In this document: positions 4,759 to 12,665 of the stretch, one piece after another
How positions within the stretch are numbered: position 1 is the stretch's first letter
Layout of the letters: each line of letters starts with the position of its first letter
Source: a virus
Strand: one strand, 5' to 3'
Virus record (IMG/VR): IMGVR_UViG_3300048919_000253
Span: 1-29,599 of that record
Length of the DNA: 29,599 nt
Made by a program: the position numbers and the translations under genes
Notes under the pieces: generated by a model
What the model saw: only the letters and a program-made list of their open reading frames with translations
The model's database searches: none
Told to the model about the DNA's origin: nothing

Positions 4759-5405
4759 GCCGTCGCCCCAAGCATTACGATCGCCCAGGCAAGCGCCCTG
4801 GCCCGCCGCGCGTTCGCTCCAATGACACGGGCGGGTCTATCACCGACCAGCGCGCGCCGGAGGGCTACCGCTGGGAGCACGTCAACGATCCCCGGCCACG
4901 TGCCAGTCACTACGTCGGCCTGGGCAACTGCCGCTGCCACGTCGTGCCGATCATTCCGCTGAACTGGTCCCTGCCGGTGGAGACGGACGAACCAAACCCC
5001 CGCCGCGTGCGCGTGATCGAGCCGCCGTATGTATATGGGCCGGACGATACCCATGCAGTGGTGGAGTGGGCCAGCTCCTGGGGGGAGACGGCGACGTTCG
5101 AGCACGACGGCACGCCTTGCCCAGGCGATCCCACCATGCCCAAGCTCCGCAATGTGCGAGGGCTATGGCCCTTGGGCGTGACGGTGCCACCCGCGCCTAT
5201 GCGCGGCCGGATCACCGCCGTGGTGTGGCCGCCCGCGCCGGAACCCCCCGCCCCGCCGGAGCTGCCCGAGGGCGTCTGGCCGCGCGGCGACGTGCTCATG
5301 TGCGAGTGCCGCGTATGCGAGCGCGCCATGCCGATCGAATGCGAACCGGAGGAGTTCGACCCCGACATGGCCTATTGCGGCGGCTCGCCCAGGTGCTGCC
5401 CATGA
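4755..5405 (+). CDS. Hypothetical protein with Cys-rich C terminus
   Basis: A 216-residue protein with an ATGA overlap and GGAGG-like purines upstream. The N terminus is basic and Pro/Arg-rich. The middle is rich in Pro, Val and Trp, suggesting extended or beta structure. The last 40 residues hold a cluster of Cys residues (CxCxxC, then single Cys, then CC near the end), probably one or two metal sites. I do not recognise a family. Confidence 0.65.
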   Translation: MSRRPKHYDRPGKRPGPPRVRSNDTGGSITDQRAPEGYRWEHVNDPRPRASHYVGLGNCRCHVVPIIPLNWSLPVETDEPNPRRVRVIEPPYVYGPDDTHAVVEWASSWGETATFEHDGTPCPGDPTMPKLRNVRGLWPLGVTVPPAPMRGRITAVVWPPAPEPPAPPELPEGVWPRGDVLMCECRVCERAMPIECEPEEFDPDMAYCGGSPRCCP

Positions 5406-5842
5406 GCATGATCGTGATGGCGTGTAGCGCCACGAAGCGCGACGATCCGGGCGAGCTGCCCGCAATCGACCGCTACGACGGCCCCATGTGGCGCACCCTC
5501 CGCGCTTCCCTGGCCGAGCTGGGAGAGAGGCCCTTGCCCGAGGTATGGTTCCTATCCGCGCGCTATGGCTTTCATCCCGCCACCTTGCCGATTGTCCACT
5601 ACGACGGGGTGTTGACGGAGGCACGCGCGCGAGACCTGTTGCGGATGCCAAGCTCCAACCACGTGGCCTTTGCGGAGGAGGTGCGCCGGCACGATCGCGT
5701 GCTATTCGCGGGCGGGGCCATATACCGCGACACCATGCTTCGGGCCGCCCCTATGGTCCGGCTGCTATCTGAAACCGATGGCGAAGGGATTGGGCACCAC
5801 CGCGCCCAGCTCCGCGCCTGGATTGCAAGGACATGCGCATGA
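5402..5842 (+). CDS. DUF6884-like protein
   Basis: A 146-residue protein with ATGA overlap to the previous gene. The N terminus reads as a hydrophobic strand ending in Ala-Cys-Ser-x-Thr-Lys. A central Trp-Phe-Leu-Ser-Ala-Arg-Tyr-Gly stretch and a nearby His-Tyr-Asp-Gly follow. This order of motifs is what I associate with the DUF6884 family found in phages and bacteria, whose activity is not established. The Cys at residue 8 and the Ser-Ala-Arg-Tyr-Gly segment are the likely functional spots. The family match is from memory of the pattern. Confidence 0.6.
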   Translation: MSMIVMACSATKRDDPGELPAIDRYDGPMWRTLRASLAELGERPLPEVWFLSARYGFHPATLPIVHYDGVLTEARARDLLRMPSSNHVAFAEEVRRHDRVLFAGGAIYRDTMLRAAPMVRLLSETDGEGIGHHRAQLRAWIARTCA

Positions 5843-7484: not shown

Positions 7485-7538
7485 CGGCCACCAGGTGACT
7501 GCGCTATGTGTCGCGCTCCAACTCTCCAGGAGCCGAAC

Positions 7539-8009
7539 ATGAAGCCAGCAGTGATAGAGGGCAGCACCCACGCCTTGGGCGCTCCCCACAAGTGGGACCA
7601 GGAGGCCAACGGACGTTGCACCGTCCTCCATGTGAAGGCGGAGGTGATCCAAGGCATTGGCTTTCTTCGCTCGGCCTGGGAACCGGAGGAAGCGGACCCT
7701 GGCCTGCTACTTGCCGGCGCGCGCATGGTTCTGGGCATCGCCGGAAGCCCGGACCAGAACAACCAGATTGCGCACCCCGTCGTTCACCTCGCGTTGACAG
7801 ACGTGCCGGAGGACATACCGCCCACGCTCACCGCTCGCCAGTTCGTTCAGCCCGACGGCAGCCAGGCCCTGCACGTGGAAATGATCTTTGGCCCTGGCAA
7901 ACGCGGCGTGGCCACCGTTTCCATGAACGCCTCGCCTTTCCACGAAGCCGTGGCGCTGGGTGCGGAGAACATCACCGAAATGGCCCGCCTTCGCGAGTGG
8001 ATTGCCTAA
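7539..8009 (+). CDS. Hypothetical protein upstream of the methyltransferase
   Basis: A 156-residue protein. I place the start at 7539 because CCAGGAG lies nine to ten bases upstream, rather than at the ATG at 7506. The sequence has strands and helices with no Cys motif beyond a single Cys, no membrane segment and a C-terminal helix. Its stop overlaps the ATG of the ParB-methyltransferase gene by one base (TAATG), so the two are probably translated together. Whether it affects the methyltransferase is unknown. Confidence 0.65.
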   Translation: MKPAVIEGSTHALGAPHKWDQEANGRCTVLHVKAEVIQGIGFLRSAWEPEEADPGLLLAGARMVLGIAGSPDQNNQIAHPVVHLALTDVPEDIPPTLTARQFVQPDGSQALHVEMIFGPGKRGVATVSMNASPFHEAVALGAENITEMARLREWIA

Positions 8010-9331
8010 TGGCTGCCCCGAAGATCACGCTGCGCAAGGCGGCCGAGCTGCGCGCCGATCCGCGCAACGCTCGCACGCACTCGCCCGACCAGGTGCGCCA
8101 GCTCGCCAACGCGCTCCTGGAGTTCGGCTTTACCAGCCCGATCCTGGTGGACGGCGCGGACAAGCTGGACATTGCCGCCGGCCACGGACGCACGGAGGCC
8201 GCCCTGCTGGTCTATGCCGAGGGCGGCACGCTCCGCTTCCCCAACGGCGACCCGCTCCCCGCCGGCACGGTGCCCACTCTGGACGTGTCCGGGTGGACGC
8301 CAGAACAGCGCCGCGCCTATGTGGTGGCAGACAACCGCCTGGCCGAGCTGGCCGGCTGGGATGAGGGTATGCTGCGCGAGGAGCTGGACGCCCTTGCCGG
8401 CGCGGACTTCTCCCTGGACACCATCGGGTTCGACACCGATGCCCTGGCCGCCCTGGCCGCGCCACCAACCACCGAACCCAGCGGCGACGCGGTGCCCGCC
8501 GGCACGATCAAGCCGGATACCGACCTGGACCTGGTGCCCGAACCCCCTGCCGATCCTGTCACGATCCGGGGTGACGTGTGGCAGCTCGACCAGCACCTGG
8601 TGGGATGCCTGGACAGCACCACCGACGCGGCACGCGAACTCTACGGCCAGGTGGACCTGGTGGCGACTGATCCGCCCTATTGCTCCGGCGGGTTCCAGGA
8701 ATCGGGCAAGTCCTCCGGCTCCGTCGGGGTGCGGAACGAACAGAAGAAGGTGGCGAACGATCGCCTTTCCACGCGCGGCTACCAGGCCCTCATGAAGGCG
8801 GCGGTGTTCGCGATCCCATCCCAGTTCTTCCTGGTGTTCACCGACTGGCGCATGTGGACTTACCTGTTCGACCTGGCGGAGGGCAGCGGCGCTGGCGTGC
8901 GCTCCATGATCGTCTGGAACAAGGGCAATGCCGGCATGGGGCGCGGCTGGCGCGCGCAACATGAGCTGATCCTATGGGGCTGCCGCGCGTCGCCGCCCTA
9001 TGAGGATGGGTTTGGCGGCCTGGGCAACGTGCGCACGATCGGCCGGCAGTCCAACGACCTCCACACTACCCAGAAGCCGGTGGAACTTATGCGCGAGCTG
9101 ATCCGCAACACGCCCTGGGCCAAGGTGGTGGCCGATCCGTTCGGCGGCTCCGGCACAACCCTGATCGCGTGCGAGGCCGAGGGCGTGGCGTGCCGCACCA
9201 CGGAGCTGGACCCGGCCTATGTGGACACGATCGTGCGCCGCTGGGAAGAAGCCACCGGCGGCCAGGCGATCCACAAGGCCACCGGCAAGACGTTCGCGGA
9301 GATTGCAGCGGAGCGGCTTGCATCCGCGTGA
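8009..9331 (+). CDS. ParB-like domain fused to N6/N4 DNA methyltransferase
   Basis: A 440-residue protein. Residues about 8-75 are a ParB/Srx-type domain (Asn-Ala-Arg-Thr-His, then Leu-x-x-Phe-Gly-Phe-x-x-Pro-Ile and Gly-His-Gly-Arg). The C-terminal part is a methyltransferase: the catalytic Asp-Pro-Pro-Tyr starts at residue 221, Thr-Thr-Gln-Lys-Pro-Val-Glu-Leu follows, and the AdoMet-binding Asp-Pro-Phe-Gly-Gly-Ser-Gly-Thr-Thr begins at residue 376. This order (DPPY before FxGxG) is the beta class, methylating adenine-N6 or cytosine-N4; DPPY favours adenine. No restriction enzyme is nearby, so it looks like an orphan phage methyltransferase, perhaps protecting phage DNA. The site is unknown. 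Confidence 0.9.
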   Translation: MAAPKITLRKAAELRADPRNARTHSPDQVRQLANALLEFGFTSPILVDGADKLDIAAGHGRTEAALLVYAEGGTLRFPNGDPLPAGTVPTLDVSGWTPEQRRAYVVADNRLAELAGWDEGMLREELDALAGADFSLDTIGFDTDALAALAAPPTTEPSGDAVPAGTIKPDTDLDLVPEPPADPVTIRGDVWQLDQHLVGCLDSTTDAARELYGQVDLVATDPPYCSGGFQESGKSSGSVGVRNEQKKVANDRLSTRGYQALMKAAVFAIPSQFFLVFTDWRMWTYLFDLAEGSGAGVRSMIVWNKGNAGMGRGWRAQHELILWGCRASPPYEDGFGGLGNVRTIGRQSNDLHTTQKPVELMRELIRNTPWAKVVADPFGGSGTTLIACEAEGVACRTTELDPAYVDTIVRRWEEATGGQAIHKATGKTFAEIAAERLASA

Positions 9332-9393
9332 ACCGGACGCTATGTGACGGACGGGGCGAAGACGACTGCCGGCCATGGTGGCAAGCCCTAGAA

Positions 9394-9799
9394 GGAACCT
9401 AGTTCCGAAGCGTAACGATGGCCGGGCTTTGCAACGCGGGTCACGTGTTGACGCTGACGTCTAGCGTAAAGCGCGTGACAGCCGGAGAGACGGCAGCCGA
9501 GCGGAGGACGTGGGCGGTAGGCGGCCCAGCACTGCATTGCGCAGACGATCCTCCGACCAGTTCCCGCAAGGGGCGATGGGGTCCGGTGGGTTATCCGCCA
9601 CCCGGATTAAACAAGAGGGAGCTGGCCAGCGGCACTGTCCGCACGGCTGATCGGAAGCGATCAATTCGCCCCCATCGAATGGATAGCCGGCCTGGGCAGC
9701 CGGAGGGCGCAAGTCCTGGGTAAAGGCGGCCGAAAGGCGCGGTGCGAAAACCCCGACTGCCACCCACGGGAGGCCCCACTGGAAACGGTGGGGCCTTTC
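9394..9799 (+). ncRNA. Candidate structured noncoding RNA, about 400 nt
   Basis: The 511 bases from 9332 to 9842 contain no credible gene but are dense in pairing. I see GGAAC/GTTCC (9394-9406) and GTCACG/CGTGAC (9440-9445, 9474-9479) enclosing ACGCT/AGCGT. CGGAGGA/TCCTCCG (9502-9508, 9549-9555) encloses two hairpins (9511-9528 and 9532-9544). Then come CCC-GCAA-GGG (9563-9572), a bulged eight-pair hairpin (9582-9606) and GCGG/CCGC (9629-9642). CGGCT/AGCCG (9644-9648, 9685-9689) encloses two hairpins (GATC/GATC and ATTCG/CGAAT). GCC-GAAA-GGC (9729-9738) and a terminator-like stem (9771-9796) complete it. It matches no tRNA, tmRNA or RNase P landmark I know. The 5' end is not defined, and strand is inferred from the terminator and neighbours. 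Confidence 0.45.
9771..9799 (+). terminator. Intrinsic terminator
   Basis: AGGCCCCAC (9771-9779) pairs perfectly with GTGGGGCCT (9788-9796) over an eight-base loop, followed by TT then CGCG. It closes the gene-free structured region and precedes a gene with its own ribosome site at 9843. The T run is short, as in the other hairpins here. Confidence 0.6.
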
Positions 9800-9842
9800 G
9801 CGTATCTGGGGAAAGCGCGCCAAGCGCACCAGGAGACGAACC

Positions 9843-10013
9843 ATGCCCGACACCTTCACCGACGACGAATTGCAAGCCGAGCGCATCCGGGCCGAGAAGC
9901 TGGCCCACCTCTGCCTGCTGCACGGCCAAATGGACGGCGGCAAGGCCATGCAATCGGTGGCCGATGCCATTTCCCATGAACAGGTGCTCCGTGCCCGCAA
10001 GCGCGGGGAATAA
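9843..10013 (+). CDS. Hypothetical tiny helical protein
   Basis: A 56-residue protein with a good ribosome site (CAGGAGACG) upstream. It is predicted to be almost wholly helical, with an acidic N terminus and basic C terminus. It overlaps the start of the ASCH gene. Its size and layout resemble many small phage helical proteins. Function unknown. Confidence 0.55.
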   Translation: MPDTFTDDELQAERIRAEKLAHLCLLHGQMDGGKAMQSVADAISHEQVLRARKRGE

Positions 10014-10434
10014 GCTGCCGCCGGTTCTCTCCGTCCGCCAGCCCTGGGCCTTCGCCATCATGCGCGGGGGCAAGGACGTGGAAAACCGGCCGCGCCGCCT
10101 GAACTATCGCGGCCCCCTGCTGATCCATGCAAGCGCCGGCATGACGGTGGACGAAGCGGAGGACTTCCGCGACTTCATCGTGGCCCAGGGCCTTCGTGGT
10201 CCATGGTGCGAAGGGGTGAAAGCCCTGGAGTTGCCGCGCGGCGTGATCGTGGGGGTGGTGGACATGGTGGATTGCTTGAACGACAGCCCCAGCCCATGGT
10301 TCATGGGCAAGTTCGGCTATGTCCTCGCCAACCCCAGGCCCTTCGCTTCCCCGATCGCGGCAAAGGGCCAGCTAGGCCTCTGGCGTGTTCCTCCGCAGCT
10401 ATCGGCAGCGGTGGCGCAGCAGATCACCGCATAA
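9976..10434 (+). CDS. ASCH-domain protein
   Basis: A 152-residue protein from the ATG at 9976; GTG at 9991 is an alternative, and neither has a strong ribosome site. Residues 19-53 carry the ASCH signature: Leu-Ser-Val-Arg-Gln-Pro-Trp-Ala, then Gly31-x-Lys33-x-x-Glu36-x-Arg38, then Tyr-Arg-Gly-Pro-Leu-Leu-Ile-His-Ala-Ser. Later there is a strand with Gly-Val-Ile-Val-Gly-Val-Val-Asp and a Gly-x-Leu-Gly-Leu-Trp end. ASCH folds are PUA-related and proposed to bind RNA or modified nucleosides; some members are nucleases or amidohydrolases. It lies directly after the candidate structured RNA and just before the terminase genes. Confidence 0.8.
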   Translation: MNRCSVPASAGNKLPPVLSVRQPWAFAIMRGGKDVENRPRRLNYRGPLLIHASAGMTVDEAEDFRDFIVAQGLRGPWCEGVKALELPRGVIVGVVDMVDCLNDSPSPWFMGKFGYVLANPRPFASPIAAKGQLGLWRVPPQLSAAVAQQITA

Positions 10435-10443
10435 CCCACAACA

Positions 10444-10498
10444 GGCCCCTGTCAGTTCTAGCCTAAGTCGAACAATGGCGATGGACTCGACGGGGGCC
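10444..10498 (+). promoter_or_regulatory. Long-armed hairpin upstream of terminase
   Basis: GGCCCCTGTC (10444-10453) pairs with GACGGGGGCC (10489-10498) with one G-T wobble, and GTTC/GAAC (10455-10458, 10470-10473) pairs inside. It fills the 88-base gap between the ASCH gene and the small terminase, so it is either a terminator-type element or a leader structure. No T run follows. Confidence 0.4.
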
Positions 10499-10522
10499 GC
10501 TTCAAGGCATAGATTTCCGGCC

Positions 10523-11047
10523 ATGACGGATGGACGCGCAAACAACGGTGGGCCACGCCCGAAGACTCGCGACAACGACGCGCGCGGCGCGCCCAAGGGA
10601 GCTATGGGCCAGCCGCCCTTTGAACCTACCCAGGAACAGCGCGACCGCGTGCGCACGCTGGCCAAGGCCTTTCCCGCCCATGCCCGCCACTACATCGCCC
10701 GCCTGCTGTCGATCAGCGTGGCGACCCTGGACCGCCATTTCCATGACGACATGGAGCTGGGCCGCGCCGAAATGCTTGCGAGCGTCGCCGCCCAGGTGGT
10801 GAACCGCGCCATGAACGCCGCGCACGAAACCGCGAAGGGCGACCTGGACGCGCAGAAGTTCATCCTGGCGCGCCTGGGTGGCTGGTCCACAAAGCTGGAG
10901 GTGACGGGCAAAGATGGTGGCCCGGTCCAGTTCAAGGACTTTGACCTGTCCAGCCTGACGGAGGAGGAGAAGCGCCTCCTGCTGGGCACAGTGGACAAGC
11001 TGCTGGACGGCCCGGCCGAGGGCGAGGACGATGCGCCTACCGCCTAA
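10523..11047 (+). CDS. Terminase small subunit
   Basis: A 174-residue protein from the ATG at 10523; an in-frame ATG at 10475 is an alternative, and neither has a strong ribosome site. The N terminus is Gly/Arg-rich and flexible. A helix-turn-helix-like stretch follows (Tyr-Ile-Ala-Arg-Leu-Leu-Ser-Ile-Ser-Val-Ala-Thr-Leu-x-Arg-His-Phe), then a helical oligomerisation part and an acidic C terminus. In the family this subunit recognises the packaging site on phage DNA and loads the large subunit. The call rests on the DNA-binding pattern and on its position directly before the large terminase, which it overlaps by 17 bases. Confidence 0.75.
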   Translation: MTDGRANNGGPRPKTRDNDARGAPKGAMGQPPFEPTQEQRDRVRTLAKAFPAHARHYIARLLSISVATLDRHFHDDMELGRAEMLASVAAQVVNRAMNAAHETAKGDLDAQKFILARLGGWSTKLEVTGKDGGPVQFKDFDLSSLTEEEKRLLLGTVDKLLDGPAEGEDDAPTA

Positions 11048-12665
11048 CCTGGTGACGATGGACGCGGCCCAGCTCCGTCACCTACGCGAACAGATCAAGC
11101 GGGAGTTGGAAGCGGCCGAGCTGGAGCGCACCAGGCAGAACGCAGAGGCCATCCGCAACCGTTGCCGCGATTCATTCGCGGAGTTCGTCAAGGCCGCCTG
11201 GCATGTGATCGAACCGGGCACAAAGCTCCGCTGGAATTGGCACCTCCAGGCCATGTGCGATCACCTCCAGGCGATCACCGAAGGCCGGTTGACGCCCTGG
11301 CTTATCATCAACGTGCCCCCCGGCAGCTCCAAGTCCACCATTGTCACTGTCATGTGGCAGGCTTGGGAGTGGGGGCCGAAAGGCTTGCGCCACCGCCGCT
11401 TTGTTTCGTCCTCATTTGAGGATGGCAACGTCACGCGCGACACGCGCAAGACGCGCGACCTGGTGCAATCGGAGTGGTTCGGCACGCTATGGCCAGAGGT
11501 GCTGGAGGCAAACGGCAAGCTGCTGCGCTCCGGCGAAACCAGCTTCGCCAACAGCGCCACCGGATCGCGCGAGGGTGTGGCATTCGGCAGCATTACCGGC
11601 AAGCGCGGCGACGTGGTTATCATTGACGACCCGCACTCGCTCAAAGGCGCGGAGTCGGAGGCCCAGCGCAATGAGACGGTGCGCCTGTTCCTGGAAGGTG
11701 GTTTGAACCGATCGAACGACGCGCTCACCTCCGCCATGGTGATCGTCATGCAGCGGTTGCACCAGGACGACCTAACCGGCGCGGTGCTCGCACGCGACCT
11801 GGGCTTTGTCCACCTCATGATTCCCATGGAGTTCGAGCCGTCGCGTCGCTGCCGCACCCCGCTCCAGGTAGACGACGGCGCGGGCGGAAAGCGCGACTGG
11901 ACGGACCCGCGCTCCTACCTGGGCGAACTCATGGACCCCACCCGCTTCCCCAAGGAAGCCGTGGAGCGCCAGAAGAAGGCCGGCCCCTATGCCTGGTCCG
12001 GCCAGTATCAGCAGAACCCCGTGCCGCGCGAGGGCGGCCTGTTTGACGTGGACAAGCTCGGCCCCGACAATATCGTGGCGGCAGCTCCAGGCGGCGGCCA
12101 GGTGGTGGCAGGCTGGGACATTGCCGGCAGCAAGCGCAAGACTTCGCCCTACACCGTGCGCGTGCTGTTCAAGCGCATTGGCGGGGACATTTACGTCCTG
12201 GACGTGAAGCGCCGCCGCACCAACCCCACCGAACTGAACGCCATGGTGGAGGAGGTGTCGAAACAAGATGCCTTGGACTATCCCGGCCTCCTCATTTCGC
12301 TACCGCAGGACCCTGGAGCCACGGGCAAGGTGGTGAAGTGGAACTGGGCCGAGAAGCTCATGGGGCTGCGCTACAAGATCACGCCGGAGACGGGCGACAA
12401 GGAGACGCGCGCCGGCCTGTTCGCTGCCCATGTGGGTGTCGGCCGCGTGTTCCTGGTCCGCGCGGCCTGGAACAGCGAATATATCGAGGAGCTGCGCAAC
12501 TTCCCCAGCGGCACCTACAAGGACCAGGTGGACGCCAGCTCGCGCGCGTTTGGTGAGCTGGTGGGAATGCCTGCCCCGCCCCAGAATGCCGCGCCGGAAA
12601 CGGTGGACGCGGAGGTGGAAGCGGCTACACCTCAAACGGCCGAAACAATCGCGGACCCCTGGTGA
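11031..12665 (+). CDS. terL: Terminase large subunit
   Basis: A 544-residue packaging ATPase-nuclease. Walker A is Pro-Pro-Gly-Ser-Ser-Lys101-Ser-Thr (residues 96-103). Walker B is Val-Val-Ile-Ile-Asp199-Asp200-Pro-His. The C-terminal RNase H-like nuclease shows three acidic positions: Gly-Trp-Asp363 on the first strand, Asp391-Val-Lys, and Asp498-Gln-Val-Asp501 near the end. It pumps DNA into the prohead and makes the packaging cut. The Walker A has Ser-Ser-Lys in place of the more common Gly-Lys-Ser variants, as seen in a subset of phage terminases. Its start overlaps the small subunit; an ATG at 11058 is a less likely start. Confidence 0.93.
   Translation: MRLPPNLVTMDAAQLRHLREQIKRELEAAELERTRQNAEAIRNRCRDSFAEFVKAAWHVIEPGTKLRWNWHLQAMCDHLQAITEGRLTPWLIINVPPGSSKSTIVTVMWQAWEWGPKGLRHRRFVSSSFEDGNVTRDTRKTRDLVQSEWFGTLWPEVLEANGKLLRSGETSFANSATGSREGVAFGSITGKRGDVVIIDDPHSLKGAESEAQRNETVRLFLEGGLNRSNDALTSAMVIVMQRLHQDDLTGAVLARDLGFVHLMIPMEFEPSRRCRTPLQVDDGAGGKRDWTDPRSYLGELMDPTRFPKEAVERQKKAGPYAWSGQYQQNPVPREGGLFDVDKLGPDNIVAAAPGGGQVVAGWDIAGSKRKTSPYTVRVLFKRIGGDIYVLDVKRRRTNPTELNAMVEEVSKQDALDYPGLLISLPQDPGATGKVVKWNWAEKLMGLRYKITPETGDKETRAGLFAAHVGVGRVFLVRAAWNSEYIEELRNFPSGTYKDQVDASSRAFGELVGMPAPPQNAAPETVDAEVEAATPQTAETIADPW

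Follow-up and report, generated by a model that had tools for sequence, protein, structure and literature searches.

A probable modular structured RNA upstream of the terminase genes of a virus, with a hairpin that recurs in many phages

A non-coding block in a phage head and packaging region

The DNA analysed here is a 29.6-kb virus record (the window), in which a ParB-like/methyltransferase gene is followed by the block at 9332–9842, a 56-aa ORF, further small genes, and the genes for the terminase small subunit, the terminase large subunit (TerL), and the portal (Table 1). The 56-aa ORF and small genes thus separate the block from the terminase, and its scanned neighbours are methyltransferase, terminase, and head genes. 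The methyltransferase gene carries its ParB-like nuclease/partition domain at the N-terminus. The small gene after the 56-aa ORF (approximately 10020–10434) matches phrog_3193 and appears ASCH-like by eye, and Pfam gave no match for the frame scanned.

A codon-usage score trained on the window's own genes is negative or about zero in all six frames from approximately 9335 to 9830, and becomes positive on either side, within the methyltransferase gene that ends at 9331 and within the ORF that begins at 9843. The block contains no conserved protein and is the window's only non-coding stretch of at least 260 nt; the statement in the earlier note that it has no credible reading frame is therefore borne out. 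ARAGORN finds no tRNA gene in the window, and no promoter was found there. Read-through from the methyltransferase gene into the block is possible.

Table 1 Features of the block and its flanking genes
Feature	Position	Strand	Description
ParB-like domain and DNA methyltransferase gene, flanking	7508–9331	+	phrog_498, phrog_620, PF01555
Non-coding region, probable structured RNA	9332–9800	+	No coding signal; homologous modules elsewhere among phages; limits inferred from where the methyltransferase gene and the 3′ hairpin end
Module A	9477–9562	+	GARAGA hairpin, three-way junction, conserved flank
GARAGA hairpin	9477–9494	+	GACA 9477–9480, stem GCCG 9481–9484, loop GAGAGA 9485–9490, stem CGGC 9491–9494; starts module A
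Module A three-way junction	Outer stem 9502–9508/9549–9555; hairpins 9512–9515/9524–9527 and 9532–9535/9541–9544	+	4 + 2 double compensatory pairs
Conserved flank CGACCAGTT	9554–9562	+	3′ side of module A outer stem; kept in L004 and L072 behind different stem sequences
Module B	9582–9667	+	Stem 9582–9586/9602–9606 with TGG/CCA 9587–9589/9598–9600; hairpins 9629–9632/9639–9642 and 9648–9653/9658–9663
Module C	9717–9766	+	TGGGT 9717–9721/ACCCA 9762–9766 enclosing conserved AAGGCGG..GGCGCGGTGCGAAAACCCC..ACTG; common to L004 and L072
3′ hairpin GGCCCCAC-TGGAAACG-GTGGGGCC	9772–9795	+	Terminator-like, without U run
56-aa ORF, flanking	9843–10013	+	Coding signal from 9843; similar protein after the RNA in L004, same place
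Terminase small subunit (10385–11047) and large subunit (11031–12665)	10385–12665	+	phrog_309, phrog_38, PF17289

Compared with shuffled sequences, the whole block folds with a z score of −3.89 on the + strand and −1.43 on the − strand. The + strand value stems largely from the 3′ hairpin, without which (9332–9768) it drops to only −0.97, so that folding energy provides no evidence here and the case rests on comparison. The count of at least ten stems in the earlier note likewise means little in such GC-rich DNA. That note also described a terminator-like stem closing the block. The hairpin is indeed strong, but its 8-bp stem is followed only by TTTC instead of the U run of a standard terminator, and no intrinsic terminator is called in the window. 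Two related loci, L004 and L084, likewise carry a GC hairpin in this position, ahead of the following ORF.

Modules shared with other phages

A sensitive DNA search of phage records yielded two relatives, both Erythrobacter phages, in which the matching sequence occupies an unannotated gap between TerL and the portal gene. Among loci fetched by terminase, L004 shows window-like surroundings and two matching stretches split by different sequence. L064, L084, L086, and L066/L072, the last a Mu-like prophage of Sphingomonas soli, came from pattern scans, and L099 from a covariance search. Module A is common to the window, L004, and L084, where a small ORF follows it, and its outer stem and CGACCAGTT flank are also present in L072. 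Module C is common to the window, L004, and L072. Module B, found outside the window only in Erythrobacter-type phages, shows 77–79% identity to Erythrobacter phages ZS04 and R6L and to L064; tRNAs adjoin it in L002 and L064. An additional domain, D-E (AGCGAAA-stem...stem′-GAGUAGG), occurs in L004, L072, L084, and L086 and is absent from the window. Its stem changes freely (GCCCG/CGGGC, GCUCG/CGAGC, GGAUC/GAUCC, GCAUC/GAUGC, and GGCUC/GAGCU, the last three being weak matches with E 0.01–0.8). A small lipoprotein-like ORF at L084:1125–1555 separates module A from domain D-E and looks like an insertion into the RNA region.

Related phages show compensatory changes in the stems of all three modules, amounting to ten double compensatory base-pair positions with three to four homologues per module. 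In module A, L004/L084 carry double changes at four of the seven outer-stem pairs and at two of the four pairs in the second inner hairpin. Across its three sequences, 96.5% of pair cells are standard and 6 pairs change on both sides, giving a covariation score that none of 500 shuffles reaches and that is destroyed when the partner is slid by 1–3 columns. These compensatory changes indicate that the junction CGGAGGA/TCCTCCG around two hairpins, first described from the window alone, is real. Module B contributes two compensatory positions in its stem and one in a hairpin, and the module C stem contributes a single pair (U-A/A-U).

Other elements of the original description are less well conserved. 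For the second proposed junction, the inner hairpin is kept in L002, but the closing helix CGGCT/AGCCG (9644–9648/9685–9689) has no partner there. At 9732, the GAAA loop is replaced by CTCA in L004 and by GATCAC in L072, and L004 offers nothing equivalent to the GCAA loop at 9566. GGAAAGACC may resemble the 23S peptidyl-transferase loop.

Placement varies among the relatives: some precede or follow the terminase gene, others are elsewhere in the head cluster, and the prophage copy is opposite the head genes. The location between methyltransferase and terminase genes thus holds for the window and L004 but not for relatives that come after TerL, adjoin a MuF-type head gene, or, in the prophage, occupy the other strand. 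Modules differ even between phages whose TerL proteins are 60–67% identical. In S. soli, a sigma70-like promoter-like sequence (TTGACA..TATTCT, as read from the DNA) precedes the RNA on the strand opposite the head genes, an arrangement that fits an independent unit. Upstream of the RNA in L072/L111 and L099, shared repeats (TGCCACCA..) overlap this promoter-like sequence, in what looks like a repressed stand-alone unit. In L064, a sub-threshold match to YrlA (Y RNA-like; 45 bits, E 3e-7) on the − strand at 5394–5502 adjoins three phage tRNAs and module B.

The module C pattern scan of genomes returned one true relative (S. soli); most other matches fell in a single Pseudomonas protein gene in which the word occurs fortuitously. 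The pattern-scan matches L067, L068, L085, L087, and L088 were likewise false. Model R1 produced one weak match over 401 Sphingomonadales genomes, and model R2 retrieved only the known copy over the class. Over the order, R2 retrieved the known copy and L099, plus ten matches at E 0.006–0.05 that, with one of them looked at, are probably due to chance. Searching phage DNA with the RNAs of L004 and L084 returned no matches, and the non-coding gaps near terminase in L014, L012, L007, and L047 contain no clear module.

The GARAGA hairpin and its tRNA neighbourhood

The hairpin at the start of module A (GACA-stem-GARAGA-stem′), a single copy of which is present in the window, also occurs in L004, L084, L082, L083, L086, and many phages. 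Its stem varies (GCCGG, GUCCG, UGCGG, GCCCG, CCCCG, GAGCG, and GCAG were all seen) while its loop is fixed, a pattern that indicates conservation at the RNA level. At least 120 IMG/VR stretches contain CAGCCGGGARAGACCGGCA, almost invariably preceded by (T)GA; by our own rough estimate, chance would yield a handful at most. Among the loci collected, GAAAGA and GAGAGA are the second and fourth commonest of the 4096 hexaloops behind a G[AG]C[AG]-stem (11 and 9 occurrences versus a mean of 0.74), in a ranking that left out CAGCCGGGARAGACCGGCA itself and whose other leading hexaloops are plain GC words; this ranking is not fully independent, since many of the loci were fetched because they carry CAGCCGGGARAGACCGGCA. 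A second hairpin with a perfect 5-bp arm lies just upstream of the GARAGA hairpin in 31 of 128 cases, versus 11.3 ± 3.2 in permuted sequences.

Across 374 genomes of the phylum, CAGCCGGGARAGACCGGCA appears four times, one of these being the known S. soli copy, compared with zero for loop-permuted and reversed controls; the three new places all adjoin tRNAs. A same-strand tRNA lies within 400 nt of 24 of 123 GARAGA hairpins, as against 3.2% of random positions, and none is found on the opposite strand. The tRNA often begins right after the hairpin or sits about 130–340 nt upstream. Some of the hairpins have no tRNA nearby, and open frames of at least 200 aa enclose 35 of 118. Within 60 nt of the hairpin, starts are absent from the opposite side (0/110) and present downstream in 23/110 cases versus 73/550 random positions. 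The hairpin loci comprise L117–L236, L116, L127, L215, and L248–L250, some of them with several copies. In the loci scanned, the hairpin drew no match from any Rfam family, and the motif did not turn up in literature searches. The block thus includes a hairpin that is a widespread, tRNA-associated phage RNA module, which the earlier note was not in a position to see.

Three loci with GARAGA hairpins have further features. L116:2290–2690, an intergenic RNA candidate in a Klebsiella prophage, holds several GARAGA-type hairpins within approximately 400 nt and adjoins CI/Cro-type genes; similar DNA is present in 453 of 5,426 E. coli genomes and in two Stenotrophomonas phages. In Xanthomonas phage Rb1 (L115, 15.3–18.0 kb), 2.6 kb without annotated genes contain a permuted tmRNA match (103 bits), a tRNA-Phe, and a GARAGA hairpin. 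Phage contig L133 encodes a HEARO RNA, the IscB omega-RNA (RF02033; − strand, 657–896, 119.9 bits), close upstream of a terminase-like gene and with a GARAGA hairpin 54 nt downstream; inspection by eye revealed no adjoining IscB-type frame of any length. The idea that the window itself holds a HEARO/omega-RNA was rejected, as it has no RF02033 match.

Relation to known RNAs and possible roles

No Rfam family matches the block above cut-off (cmscan, E-values up to 10), and SAM_alpha and Molybdenum give weak matches in it or across its edge, far below cut-off. With no ARAGORN or Rfam match in the block, its exclusion from the tRNA, tmRNA, RNase P, group I, and group II classes, as originally proposed, stands. 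GOLLD RNA (RF02032) is a large, structured RNA of phages and prophages whose function is unknown, and ROOL RNA (RF03087) is a large phage/prophage RNA with no known partner; both often lie near tRNA islands (PMC12286853). Covariance-model checks that included both gave nothing above cut-off: GOLLD had no match in the window or 17 related records and ROOL likewise had none, in model searches whose positive control was silent, and cmscan of the block found neither. The window RNA is likewise large, non-coding, and phage-borne, with a covarying multi-stem structure, and resembles GOLLD and ROOL in context but not in sequence; it is shorter than GOLLD and has other modules. The window has no tRNA gene; tRNAs do adjoin module B in L002/L064 and a fifth of the GARAGA hairpins. 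Because this GOLLD/ROOL-like context comes with no match to known classes, we file it as an undescribed family of modular phage RNAs. Mu-gpT-DE (RF03012) is a small RNA of Mu-like phages, and GARAGA hairpins also occur in the Mu-like head-gene region (L086, L134, and L166), but neither these loci nor the window gave a match over cut-off. The put antiterminator RNA of HK022 consists of two neighbouring hairpins in the phage transcript and requires no phage protein (PMC9378689); the GARAGA motif in its GACA context is absent from the HK022 stretch examined (24000–40751).

We conclude that the block very probably corresponds to a real, undescribed, modular structured RNA. It is non-coding, its stems covary, its parts recur in different phages and places, and it has no Rfam match. 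The original proposal of a multi-junction RNA of about 400 nt in no known class is supported at about 400–470 nt by the covariation and by the lack of an Rfam match or a conserved protein. The + strand RNA would measure about 440–470 nt and comprise the GARAGA hairpin and three-way junction (A), the B domain, the C domain, and the closing 3′ hairpin; we infer that it is transcribed and released as a discrete RNA, a reading prompted by the S. soli prophage copy with its promoter-like sequence on the strand opposite the head genes. It would belong to a group of phage-borne RNAs built from recurring structural modules and sited in the head/packaging region or beside phage tRNA genes. The ordinary folding energy without the 3′ hairpin would also suit fortuitous structure in a GC-rich spacer, or a gene or tRNA region that has decayed. 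The ten compensatory positions, with their slide and shuffle controls, largely refute this explanation, and the long conserved words at unequal places in unrelated contexts and the lack of any tRNA or Rfam match in the block further argue against it, making it highly improbable.

The combination of an invariant loop and a freely varying stem suggests a docking site for a bound partner, and the same-strand tRNAs adjoining related elements suggest that this partner most likely belongs to the translation machinery. The RNA could act in trans as a scaffold or decoy, with GARAGA hairpins serving as docking sites for a widespread partner, and we advance such a trans-acting, translation-linked role tentatively. 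It might instead be a cis-acting element of the packaging-operon mRNA, namely a long structured leader or intergenic stretch governing elongation, processing, or translation of the genes from 9843 through the terminase, with GARAGA as a processing or antitermination signal. In both the window and L004, the RNA immediately precedes the operon on the same strand, and in the window it lacks a promoter of its own. GARAGA hairpins generally follow the strand of neighbouring genes, as the distribution of starts indicates, and often immediately precede a tRNA or ORF. The S. soli copy, however, opposes the head genes and has its own promoter-like sequence, modules move between places around different genes, and downstream starts are only moderately more frequent than at random positions; we consider a cis-acting role plausible, if short of likely.

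An RNA sponge or decoy, for example in counter-defence, would use the GARAGA hairpin to titrate a host RNA-binding protein or nuclease. The clustered hairpins of the Klebsiella prophage, with their relatives in E. coli and Stenotrophomonas phages, and the partner implied by the fixed loop are compatible with this function, but the window has one copy only and no partner or defence link was found, rendering it unlikely. For the anti-defence decoy raised in the earlier note, the results speak neither for nor against. The proximity to terminase genes in the window, L004, L002, and L064 recalls a packaging RNA of the phi29 pRNA type acting on the terminase; a packaging RNA was among the options in the earlier note. 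The varied siting of the relatives, on either side of the terminase gene, next to other head genes, or on the other strand, argues against an RNA fixed to the terminase, as do the differing modules of phages with similar TerL proteins, and we judge this role extremely improbable. There is a small chance that the function lies outside translation in trans, a cis leader or processing element, and a sponge or counter-defence RNA.

More speculatively, the GARAGA hairpin, alone or with the AGCGAAA..GAGUAGG domain and modules A, B, and C, may be a building block reused in phage non-coding RNAs, tRNA arrays, and intergenic mRNA. One widespread host factor would recognise GARAGA, marking a common but unnoticed RNA pathway of which the window RNA would be a composite member. 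GOLLD and ROOL are large phage RNAs without known function. The present case offers a modular family with no Rfam match, whose parts are shuffled between phages and from which one small, fixed-loop hairpin present in very many phages can be isolated. As this hairpin is short enough to be synthesised and used as bait, the binding partners of such phage RNAs become directly testable.
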